The notes under the pieces were generated by a model. That model did no database searches. It saw nothing but the letters and a program-made list of their open reading frames with translations, and was not told the origin of the DNA. Of a stretch of 43,576 bases of DNA, positions 32,660 through 36,574 are shown one piece after another. Within the stretch, counting starts at the first letter, position 1. Each line of letters opens with the position of its first letter. Both the position numbers and the translations under genes were made by a program. Origin of the DNA: Elusimicrobiales bacterium (lineage in GTDB: Bacteria > Elusimicrobiota > Elusimicrobia > Elusimicrobiales > UBA9959); assembly GCA_031082205.1 (NCBI GenBank), contig JAVHLJ010000021.1:1-43576 (forward strand). Reading direction: 5' to 3'.

Positions 32660-33155
32660 TCCGCGCGGATACCGGGCCGGCGCGCCGGGGCGCTTTACCG
32701 AGTTCCTCGCCACCGGCTGCTTCGTCGGACTGCTTCCGCAGGCTATGACCCCTTTCAAAAAATGCACCGGGGCGGGCATGCTGGGCTCGCTGCTCGCGCT
32801 GCTGGCGCTGCCGCTGCTCCCCACGGGGTGGGCCTACGCCGCGCTGCTGGCCGCCTTCTTCCCTTTCTCGGCCTGGATAGCCGGCCGGGCTTCGGCCGCC
32901 TACGGCAGGCATGACGACCCGCGCATAGTCATAGACGAGATACTCGGCTTCTGGACGGCCGCGGCGTTCCTGCCGCTGGAGCCGCTGCCGATAATAACGG
33001 CCTTCGTCGCTTTCCGTTTCCTCGACACCGTAAAGCCCTGGCCCATAAGCTTCGCCGAAAAGAACCTCCAGGGCGGTTTTGGTATAATTATGGACGACGT
33101 CATGGCCGGGATAGCCGCCAATGTCATAGCGCGTTTCGTAGCGGTTTTCATATGA
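32652..33155 (+). CDS. pgpA: Phosphatidylglycerophosphatase A
   Basis: A 167-residue membrane phosphatase that makes phosphatidylglycerol from its phosphate, the step right after PgsA. The three PgpA blocks are visible: GLLPQAMTPFKKCTGAGMLG (shortened, near 26-45), DDPRIVIDEILGFW (acidic catalytic region, near 87-100) and the end FRFLDTVKPWPI with GGFGIIMDDVMAGI. In the first block LPxAPGTxGS of most PgpA is replaced by a run with TPFKKCTGAGMLG, a mild divergence. Four or so hydrophobic helices fit an integral membrane protein. The neighbouring pgsA-pgpA order makes the pathway step explicit. Confidence 0.92.
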   Translation: MADPRGYRAGAPGRFTEFLATGCFVGLLPQAMTPFKKCTGAGMLGSLLALLALPLLPTGWAYAALLAAFFPFSAWIAGRASAAYGRHDDPRIVIDEILGFWTAAAFLPLEPLPIITAFVAFRFLDTVKPWPISFAEKNLQGGFGIIMDDVMAGIAANVIARFVAVFI

Positions 33156-34048
33156 GGAACACCGGTATCATAGCCCTCCTTTTGGCCCTCTGCGGCCCGT
33201 CCTTCGCGCAGGAGGTCTCCACGGCCCCGGCGGCGGGGGAAGTCTCCGTCTCCACGGCCCCGGCCGAGCTTCCCGGAATGGCCCCGTCCAAACCCGCGCG
33301 CGCGCCGGGCGTTTATCCCCAGGCGGCCGTTCCGATAAGCGGCATCGTCCTGACCCCGACGGCCTACCGCGGCCGCGGCAGGAACGAGATAGGCCTGGGC
33401 CTGGACTTCAACGCCGCCTATTATATCGGCCGCCTCTACGGCAAGAATTCTTTCGACTGGACGCTGGAGAAGAAGAATTACATAGACCGGCTCGGCGTCT
33501 GGTTCATAACCGCCGACGGCAAGATGCTCATACAGACCGAGGACGCCTGGAGGCCCGCCATGGCCGCGGGCGCGCAGGGCACCTTCGCTTTCCGGGACTC
33601 CAACCAGGCCGCCCTCAACAGCAACAGGCCTTCCGTATCGGTGGACGACGACAACACGAACACCTACGCGACCGCCTACCTCGCACTGACCAAGCACATC
33701 CATCCCAAGTTCATTATCAACGCGGGCTACGCGGACGGGGACCTGTCCAAGAGCGTCTACATGCTCTCCGAGTTCCTCTCGGAGCGCGCCCTGTCGCTCA
33801 ACGGCTATACGGGGCGCGAGGTGCCGACGGGAGCGCTGTTCGCCGGCTTCATCTGGCTGCCCAGGCCCAACAATCCCCTGGCGGCAGAGGTCGTAATACC
33901 GCAGGGCGCGCCGATGAGCCCCAAGCTCGTCAACCTCCAGCTCGGCACCCTGCTCAAGCTCAACTTCCAGCTCTCGTACCTGAAGTTCGACGGCGGCTGG
34001 GACCTGCTCGGCATGTTCCAGTTCCGCTACTCCCACTTCCCCAAGTAA
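33152..34048 (+). CDS. Exported protein, possible outer-membrane barrel, end of the envelope operon
   Basis: A 298-residue exported protein, unrecognised. A signal peptide of about 19 residues (cleavage near FA/QE) is followed by a low-complexity linker with a repeated VSTAPA unit, then a region from about 65 to the end with alternating strand patterns: RNEIGLGLDFNAAYYIG, KFIINAGYADGDLSK, ALFAGFIWLPRP, LLKLNFQLSYLKFDGG and GMFQFRYSHFPK. This is suggestive of a small outer-membrane barrel or a beta-rich periplasmic domain; there is no terminal Phe at the last residue, though FPK is close. It overlaps the end of pgpA by four bases (ATGA), so it is cotranscribed with lipid and lipoprotein genes and may have an envelope role. 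Confidence 0.6.
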   Translation: MRNTGIIALLLALCGPSFAQEVSTAPAAGEVSVSTAPAELPGMAPSKPARAPGVYPQAAVPISGIVLTPTAYRGRGRNEIGLGLDFNAAYYIGRLYGKNSFDWTLEKKNYIDRLGVWFITADGKMLIQTEDAWRPAMAAGAQGTFAFRDSNQAALNSNRPSVSVDDDNTNTYATAYLALTKHIHPKFIINAGYADGDLSKSVYMLSEFLSERALSLNGYTGREVPTGALFAGFIWLPRPNNPLAAEVVIPQGAPMSPKLVNLQLGTLLKLNFQLSYLKFDGGWDLLGMFQFRYSHFPK

Positions 34049-34426
34049 GCCTTCTCCTCCGCCCGCGCCTCCCGGAAAACAGGAAAACCTATGCCGGGGC
34101 ATGGCGGCGTGCCAGCACGCAACACATGCGGCATAGGCTCCCGTCAGGGATACGCGCTCGTCACGGTTCGCTTTTTCCGGGCCCACCCTTCGCTCGTTCG
34201 GCCGGGCACGAACTCGGCCTGCGCGCATAGCGCGCTAGGCCTCAGACAATCATGCCCGTCCGGCAGTGCCGGTTCCCTCTCTCGCTCGGGGAGCCGGTGG
34301 AATCGCATCTCGAGGATGCGGAGGCGCGTACGAGCGCCCGCGGCGAGAACGGGAAGGGCGCGCACGGTGTGCGCGACCCTGTTTTTGCGGGGTGAGGGCA
34401 CGCCATGCCCCCGGAATAGTTATTCC
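34049..34426. repeat. Hairpin-rich non-coding block with imperfect inverted-repeat ends
   Basis: This is the only stretch over 300 bases without a convincing gene. The ends are related inverted copies: 34094-34113 on one side and 34397-34414 on the other share CCGGGG..CATGGC..GTGCC with small indels. Between them are many short perfect stems: 34088-34096 with 34129-34137, 34107-34111 with 34116-34120, 34216-34226 with 34230-34241, 34260-34272 (palindrome), 34304-34309 with 34315-34320, 34323-34327 with 34334-34338, and 34359-34365 with 34369-34375. At the right end is a short palindrome (34413-34426). An 85-codon frame on the minus strand (34144-34401) is open but matches nothing and has no ribosome site. 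It could be a MITE-like or REP-like genomic repeat or a structured RNA; a pseudogene remnant is less likely. Confidence 0.4.
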
Positions 34427-36574
34427 TTAACGGCGGGGGGACTGGAACTGGCGGAGGTAATGGGCGGCCTGCGCGTGGGAGGGATTCTTGCGCAGCGTCT
34501 CGGCGAGCTCGCGCGCGACGCGGTCCCAGTCGCGGTTCCAGTAGAGGATGGCGAGATTGTAGTTGGCGTCGGCCAGGCCCGGATTGCGGGCGGCCGCGCG
34601 CAGGTAGGCCTTCTCGGCCCCGTCCCTGTCCCCGGTCTTCTCCAGCGCGACGCCGTAATTGAGCCAGGCGTAAGCGCTGGACCTGCGCAGCGAGTCTTTG
34701 AGGTCCGGCAGCGAACGGTACTCGTCCGCCAGGGCAAGCAGTCTTTCGTAGCCGTCCACCGAGGACTTGAACCTGCCGCCGGCGCCGGCCCAGTCGCCGT
34801 CGGCGGAGAGCAGGAAGCCGGAGTACAGATGCGCGTCGGCCAGGTCGGGGTCCGCCGACGAGGCGTAATCCAGCCAGGCGGCGGCCTCCTTCTTCCTGCC
34901 GGCGGAACTGTGCAGGGAGCCGACGGCCAGCGCCCCCTGCGCGTAGGAAGAGATCACGTCTTTGGCGAAAAAATCGGGGAAGGGGCGCCCTATCTTCCAG
35001 CGATGGGAATAGACCGCGGAGGGGTCGGCCGGAGGCGTAAGGCCCTTTGGGGGATATACGGCCATGACCAGCCCCATCGGCACGGTAGGGGCCCCTGACG
35101 GGACCTCGCAGTCCACCGTCGCGTAGAAGTCCTTCCATGCGCGCCCGGCCGCGGCCCAGGCCTCCTGCCCGCCGGTGTTCAGGTTGAAGACCGGGAAACC
35201 CGGCTCTTTGCGCGCCCAGGCCGCCTGGTACCACGGCGCTCCGCTCAGGCCCTGCGCTATCACCCGCACGTCGGGCCGCAGCCCCTCTACCTGCTGGTAG
35301 TACCAGAGCGAGAAAAGCTGAACGTCCTTCTTGGCGACCAGCACCGCGCCGGCCGGCAGACCGCGCAGCGCGTCGGCCGCGTAATCCGCGGTCAGGAACA
35401 TCCCGCGGCGGTCGGCCTTGCGCGCCGACGGCAGGCCGAAGAGAAGCAGCCCCGCCAGCGCCAGCGCGGCGGCGGCCGGGCGCCCGTACCCGCCGGCCGC
35501 CAGGAGCGCGTGCAGCCCCTCTCCCAGCCACCACGCGACGGCGATGTCCGGGAGCAGGTAGTAAGGCTCGACCACCGCCAGGGCGTGCGGGTTGGGCGGC
35601 ATATTGGCGAGGAAAAGGAACAGCGGGCCCGAGGCGAGGAAGAAGAGCGACCAGAAGAGGCCGTCCCGGCGCGAGCGCCTCCAGGAATACCACGCGCCGG
35701 CGGCGGCGACGGCGAGGGCCGGGCCCATGTTCTCCCAGAGATGGAGCCCGTAGTAGCGGAGATTAACCCAGAACAGCTCGCCCTTGGCGTAATTGGTCGA
35801 GATAAGGTCGAGCGTGGAGCCGTAGCTGCGGCGGGTTATTATGCCCCAGAAATTGGCCCAGTCGGAGGGCCGGCCCCAGTCGAGGAAAGGGCCGGCGGCC
35901 GAGCGCAGCGGCAGGTAGAGATACAGGGAATAACCCGCGAGGAAGAACAGCGCGCAGAGGGGCAGGACCCTGTAATAGAGCCGCGGGCCCAGCGCGCGGG
36001 CCGCCGGCGGGAGGACCAGCGCCAGCGCGGCGGGGTAGACTAGCATCAGGTCCATCCGGTTGGTCAGGAAAAGACCGAACAGGAACGCCAGGAGATAGAG
36101 CTTCCTGGCCGAAAAATTTACCGCCGCGCGGAAGGAGAAGAAGGCGACCGCCACACCGAAGAGCGCGTGAAGCGAGTACATCTCGGGAACGCCCGATACG
36201 GTTATGAGAGTGAAGTTCAGTCCCAGCAGCAGCGCGGCGGCCAGCGAGGCCGAGGGCCTGAAAAAGCCCGACATGAAAAAGAAGATCAGCGCCGGCGCGG
36301 CCGCCCCGGCCGCGGCCGAAAAAAGGTGCAGCTTCCAGTCCTGGGCGCCGGGCAGCAGCGCCGAGAAGGCGCGCCCGGCGAGTACATAGAGCGGATAGCC
36401 GGGCGGATGCGGGATGCCCAGCGAATGGACGTCGCAGGCCAGTTCCCCGGCGTCCCGGTAGGGCGCCAGGACGGGAGGCATCAGGAAAACGTAGAGCGAT
36501 ATGAACAGGGCGAAAATGCCGGCGGCCGCCGCCGCCCTTTTCGGTACGCTGAGATCGCCGATCCTTGTGTCCAT
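34427..36574 (-). CDS. DUF2723-type membrane glycosyltransferase with C-terminal TPRs
   Basis: A 715-residue protein. The N-terminal 380 residues are a multi-pass membrane protein (about ten or more helices) of the DUF2723/GT117 type, GT-C-like enzymes thought to transfer sugars from lipid carriers to proteins. The first loop has the expected acidic motif (RDAGELACDVHSLGIPHPPGYPLY), and YLPLRSAAGPFLDWGRP is a conserved family block. Then comes a soluble domain (about 390-545), and TPR helices at the end (about 555-710: AYAQGALAVGSLHSSAGRKKEAAAWL, AWLNYGVALEKTGDRDGAEKAYLRAA). The start has no clear ribosome site; a TAGAAT box lies only 10 bases upstream. It may be an O-mannosyltransferase-like enzyme of surface proteins (inference). 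It is a separate unit between the hairpin block and the MoxR operon. Confidence 0.75.
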   Translation of the reverse strand: MDTRIGDLSVPKRAAAAAGIFALFISLYVFLMPPVLAPYRDAGELACDVHSLGIPHPPGYPLYVLAGRAFSALLPGAQDWKLHLFSAAAGAAAPALIFFFMSGFFRPSASLAAALLLGLNFTLITVSGVPEMYSLHALFGVAVAFFSFRAAVNFSARKLYLLAFLFGLFLTNRMDLMLVYPAALALVLPPAARALGPRLYYRVLPLCALFFLAGYSLYLYLPLRSAAGPFLDWGRPSDWANFWGIITRRSYGSTLDLISTNYAKGELFWVNLRYYGLHLWENMGPALAVAAAGAWYSWRRSRRDGLFWSLFFLASGPLFLFLANMPPNPHALAVVEPYYLLPDIAVAWWLGEGLHALLAAGGYGRPAAAALALAGLLLFGLPSARKADRRGMFLTADYAADALRGLPAGAVLVAKKDVQLFSLWYYQQVEGLRPDVRVIAQGLSGAPWYQAAWARKEPGFPVFNLNTGGQEAWAAAGRAWKDFYATVDCEVPSGAPTVPMGLVMAVYPPKGLTPPADPSAVYSHRWKIGRPFPDFFAKDVISSYAQGALAVGSLHSSAGRKKEAAAWLDYASSADPDLADAHLYSGFLLSADGDWAGAGGRFKSSVDGYERLLALADEYRSLPDLKDSLRRSSAYAWLNYGVALEKTGDRDGAEKAYLRAAARNPGLADANYNLAILYWNRDWDRVARELAETLRKNPSHAQAAHYLRQFQSPRR

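Follow-up and report, generated by a model that had tools for sequence, protein, structure and literature searches.

Between two genes of the 43,576-nt Elusimicrobiales contig analysed here, which we refer to as the window, lies a 378-base gene-free stretch (34049-34426) that adjoins the 3' ends of both its neighbours, a 298-aa open reading frame on the plus strand (33152-34048), for which no Pfam match was found, and a 715-aa open reading frame on the minus strand (34427-36574). The initial annotation had described in it a hairpin-rich block with inverted ends and had offered three readings, a MITE-like mobile repeat, a REP-like extragenic element or a structured RNA, which raises the question of what this block is and how it came to lie there. 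The block itself is real. The stem claimed between 34088-34096 and 34129-34137 is perfect over 9 nt, and the claimed related inverted ends are 100% complementary over 11 nt (34096-34106/34401-34411), with the true ends lying further out than first noted, so that the block spans 34081-34429 and on the right reaches the 715-aa gene at its stop codon. Both the single-stranded DNA (z = -4.9) and the RNA of the opposite strand (z = -4.8) fold more stably than expected by chance, with 0 of 100 shuffles scoring as low in either case. In our view, the block probably represents a degraded composite member of an extragenic palindromic repeat, one that is family-restricted and of high copy number, spreads non-autonomously and has its arms and interior reshaped in place.

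Read from a full-length relative in genome G001 (locus L036), the make-up of the block is mosaic and, as judged by sequence comparison, it is a decayed composite copy in which two repeat families (modules B and C) and a deletion can be distinguished, and not a single element (Table 1). Genomes G003 and G001 have retained longer versions across the deletion point at the window's locus. Short terminal repeats (TAAGGAATAACTATGCCGG) flank the composite, and the family end GGAATAACTATGCCGG recurs at many places in the window's own genome and, in G003 and G001, at the corresponding locus. The module C part matches L036 888-1022 at the DNA level and is also recognised by model R1, built from 66 copies of module C (34297-34390; 34.5 bits, E 0.0005). 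Module B (~200 nt) also occurs solo in the genus, with outer arms that are complementary and differ in sequence from copy to copy (e.g. L053, L020 and L019). In L022 and L044, module B is itself interrupted, at two different points, by a third hairpin element (~100 nt) that begins near CACGCATAGCCCGCATAGCGGG.

Table 1 Features of the block in the window, and orthologous loci at which the interior is flipped between species
Feature	Position or loci	Strand	Evidence
Left terminal inverted repeat of composite	34081..34099	+	84% complementary to 34409-34427 over 19 nt
Left-end hairpin (34088-34096 with 34129-34137), second stem inside	34088..34137	+	9-nt perfect stem, folding
Module B, right end missing	34136..34291	+	94.9% identity to L036 588-743; full copy ~200 nt
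Deletion point, B lacking its right end and C its left half	34291..34292	.	~145 nt more here in L036
Module C, right half, running into right terminal repeat	34292..34427	+	model R1 match 34297-34390
P4 hairpin followed by T-run, terminator-like	34359..34386	+	stem 34359-34375, tail ACCCTGTTTT; chance expectation over the scanned stretch 0.5
Right terminal inverted repeat, touching stop codon of 715-aa gene	34409..34429	-	complementarity, same-locus comparison
Flipped locus	L101/L135/L120 vs L114/L155		
Flipped locus	L123/L162 vs L127/L160		
Flipped locus	L092 vs L165		
Flipped locus	L163 vs L159		
Flipped locus	rnpB: G052 inverted		
Flipped locus	window and G003 vs G001		

A search with the block returned ~38 hits from its own genome and numerous hits from all three genomes of the same genus, and because the block is multicopy, chance single-copy palindromes are ruled out. 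Many copies with the same ends, as had been anticipated for a mobile repeat, were found in this way, but a simple target duplication was not seen. In the draft assembly G000, copies lie at the first bases of contigs C27, C51, C32, C31 and C9; located at contig ends as they are, copies of the repeat family interrupt this assembly, and the copy number obtained is therefore a minimum. Modules B and C are independently dispersed hairpin modules, the latter reaching at least 50 copies in some genomes. The core of C was detected by DNA search in 43 of the 59 genomes of the family and by model R1 in 48 of the 59, with the largest counts at 56 copies per genome or more. Applied across the phylum, the model matched 38 of 295 genomes, all but one of them in this family; the sole matches outside it are three weak ones (E 3e-10) in G291, from another family of the same class. 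An exact-pattern scan of one genome per species over 84,980 species yielded 82 stretches, most titled Elusimicrobia and a minority only 'bacterium'. Module C is almost confined to one Elusimicrobiota family of groundwater bacteria, the genomes of which are all drafts, mostly metagenome assemblies, in which palindromic repeats may be mis-assembled. None of the papers searched links Elusimicrobia with repetitive extragenic palindromes.

Many copies of C are located at orthologous intergenic places, as judged by flanking BLAST and alignments, with flanking genes that are roughly 70-90% identical between species, and a copy once in place can last through speciation. A natural presence/absence series is offered by the site downstream of rnpB, where the element starts 8-9 nt past the end of the RNase P RNA (two loci scanned with Rfam). 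Among the genus-g4 genomes read, 17 carry the element in one orientation, G052 carries it inverted and six are devoid of it, with just 31-41 nt to the next gene; these states were assigned by reading the sequences, the script's pattern having missed some. A tree of rnpB requires at least four changes of presence, and gains or losses therefore recur at this site. In the window's genus, a B-like element is present there in G000 and missing in G002 and G003. The element ends are TA-rich, and at the empty rnpB sites no palindrome is present and no clean target duplication was seen; an 18.5-kb comparison for a clean empty site showed only a divergent 18-nt spacer, in G051. In other genera and species, the gap downstream of rnpB holds palindromes that are unlike C (e.g. 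L249, L275, L242 and L259), and the site looks like a hotspot. In most genomes of the family the gene directly after rnpB encodes a small conserved protein starting with M(D/S)SL...KIPEIKFSSDA.

Module C corresponds to a 137-nt fold consisting of a 20-pair outer stem, an A-tract/T-tract helix and two inner hairpins. The A-tract/T-tract helix (GCAAAAC...GTTTTTGC) is invariant in 66 copies, invariant positions are also present among the unpaired and loop letters, and a family consensus exists for the inner arm; the outer stem varies in sequence from copy to copy, with its complementarity kept. In these 66 copies, which were picked by a core pattern that biases the P4 region, changes on both sides were found in 32 of 47 pairs and 95.5% of the cells are paired, compared to 78.3% after shuffling and 40-47% after sliding. 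For the outer half of the outer stem, the column consensus is 0.57 and the Watson-Crick paired fraction 0.76, against 0.41 expected. The stems do covary, the behaviour that had been put forward as the mark of a conserved RNA, but an RNA is not proven thereby, because the inner stems are nearly free of G.U pairs and show no strand preference and because the element inverts relative to its flanks. The inner stems are 99% Watson-Crick, with 6 G.U versus 8 A.C among 1782 cells, unlike what is expected of an RNA gene. In the outer stem 81 G.U are found versus 28 A.C (~56 versus 28 when the conserved G.U at columns 12/129 is left out), and single outer-stem changes between same-orientation orthologs lean to G.U by 14 to 3, in a tally of pairs that are not independent. 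This lean hints at selection for pairing of one strand rather than pure template switching; the pairing selected could be that of an RNA or a strand-specific DNA pairing, and the DNA/RNA signal is mixed overall.

If module C were a functional structured RNA read from its plus strand, with the repeats as copies of an RNA gene, the extensive covariation, the invariant unpaired and loop letters and the excess of G.U over A.C in the outer stem and among same-orientation orthologs would be accounted for, as would the interior being better conserved than the flanking genes in some pairs. Such an RNA is nevertheless unlikely in view of the G.U-poor inner stems, the occurrence of both orientations at one locus and the rnpB site, where the genes on either side both lie on the opposite strand. 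Moreover, no Rfam match above the gathering threshold was obtained for the window block or for intact copies, in line with the initial annotation, which had recognised no RNA family, and no promoter-like site was found in the window block. As inner stems can covary strongly without a G.U preference in an element that inverts relative to the genes, caution is needed in RNA discovery by covariation.

At six of the 13 orthologous loci compared, the window's locus among them, one or more species carry a flipped interior (Table 1); the seven others, one of which is a module B, show a single orientation only. Flips are not frequent at every site: at rnpB, 1 of 18 carriers is inverted, and this near-uniform orientation speaks against frequent random assembly error. 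Interior identity in two close flipped pairs is 96-97%, which corresponds to the 98-99th percentile of non-orthologous pairs, and the unusual inner arm GGGGGAGGC is common to the flipped orthologs L101, L135 and L114. Both the near-identity of close flipped interiors and the sharing of this rare arm across the flip favour inversion in place over independent insertion. Between more distant orthologs, interior similarity does not exceed that between paralogs, from which we conclude that replacement or conversion among copies also happens. This last similarity, like the outer arms that differ from copy to copy and the several kinds of palindromes at the rnpB site, is also what would be left behind if insertion had occurred independently and repeatedly at the same sites, into existing palindromes and in either orientation; this scenario is quite unlikely, as it is at odds with the shared arm and the near-identical flipped interiors. 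Insertion into pre-existing palindromes was rejected since no palindrome stands at the empty rnpB sites and the inner arms show a family consensus. The orthologous copies provide a direct test of palindrome evolution, with arms co-changing, spacers flipping and the core remaining constant.

In the extragenic repeat that we favour, the outer arms would drift in sequence yet stay complementary, and the interior would flip between them. Replication template switching between the two hairpin arms would be the simplest cause, because no dedicated enzyme is needed for it to cover the two odd features. Two reports (PMC8604942, PMC8794818) describe how template switching homogenises the two arms of inverted repeats and inverts the spacer; they deal with quasipalindromes in yeast coding genes and RNA genes, whereas the present case concerns a dispersed bacterial repeat family across species. 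Alternatively, the interior might be flipped by a site-specific invertase or integrase at the inverted motifs GCAAAAC/GTTTTTGC, which are invariant in the 66 copies and border the flipped part. We regard this as very unlikely, given that no gene for such an enzyme was identified and that homogenisation of the arms would require a second cause.

A hairpin of -10 kcal/mol or lower directly before a T-run of at least 4 is found on 65 of 66 plus strands and on 66 of 66 minus strands of C, compared to 0 of 90 shuffled sequences (simple shuffling). Together with the A-tract/T-tract helix that never varies, this tentatively suggests a two-way intrinsic terminator, i.e. an inversion-tolerant intergenic part selected for stopping transcription from either side, which would be compatible with the favoured repeat. 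Its placement just after rnpB fits this role, as does the avoidance of gaps between divergent genes, where 2 of 64 copies lie versus 22 of 130 gaps of at least 150 bp, a comparison made with a simple gene finder and against a background that includes gaps with elements. We hold the role to be possible and no more than that, since the six relatives without the element have the next gene 31-41 nt after rnpB, some copies lie beside an ordinary terminator (G4, G5) and the T-runs are short (4-5). If true, a phylum with hardly any cultured members would have adopted a mobile repeat as a standard genomic part. Known bidirectional intrinsic terminators likewise have a hairpin and T-run per strand and are located between gene 3' ends, but C is far larger, forms a multicopy homologous family and is absent at some conserved sites. 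Rather doubtful is the more far-reaching proposal that the elements form a new class of intergenic DNA device, selected and invertible, in which a two-way terminator of ~50 copies per genome would have its arms rewritten and its core flipped in place, by template switching or a putative invertase, and would display RNA-like covariation without an RNA function.

Among the readings offered at the outset, those of a MITE-like repeat and a REP-like element are both supported by a family that is multicopy, intergenic and palindromic, with terminal inverted repeats and empty sites, whereas a structured RNA was not proven. REP, BIME and REPIN sequences of enterobacteria and Pseudomonas resemble C in having dozens of copies or more, in being intergenic and palindromic, with inverted pairs as a unit and a location near gene 3' ends, and in being probably mobilised in trans. 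Their unit measures 20-40 nt, however, whereas C is 137 nt long with three helices and a conserved core, its interior flips, its arms differ from copy to copy and no RAYT link was found. Concerning REP tags, GTAG occurs near an end in 3 of the 66 copies of C; CGTC is found in 31 of 66, where it is part of the arms and not an unpaired tag. MITEs and modular repeats such as BOX, Correia and ERIC are short, non-coding and modular and have terminal inverted repeats. The composite of genus g1 shares these properties. Terminal inverted repeats are present in the window composite and also in a pair at L157 (32-bp ends); in contrast, no autonomous partner or target duplication was found and single C copies of genus g4 are bounded by variable arms and not by a fixed terminal inverted repeat. 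Integron attC sites, likewise imperfect palindromes in which the arms vary and the inner motifs are conserved, were rejected as a match, the RYYYAAC/GTTRRRY box pair being found in 0 of 66 C copies.

As non-autonomous DNA, the repeat would spread to sites between genes, for the most part at gene 3' sides, with the help of a putative mobilising enzyme. Y1 transposases are present in these genomes with no link to the element, and a RAYT/Y1 transposase was rejected as mobiliser, no element being found at the 30 Y1 loci checked and no Y1 match in the copy-rich genomes G055 and G064. As to an autonomous transposon with the same ends, searching the draft genome with the end pattern (at most 3 mismatches) revealed no long pair that was plausible. 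In all eight close pairs of C copies the order is the same, minus then plus, and at L157:5139-5483 two C copies lie back to back inside 32-bp inverted repeats (GGGTAATAGGGCCGCAGGAT.GCCCAGTCGGGG). This is as expected of a paired mobile unit, and the L157 pair is possibly a complete one.
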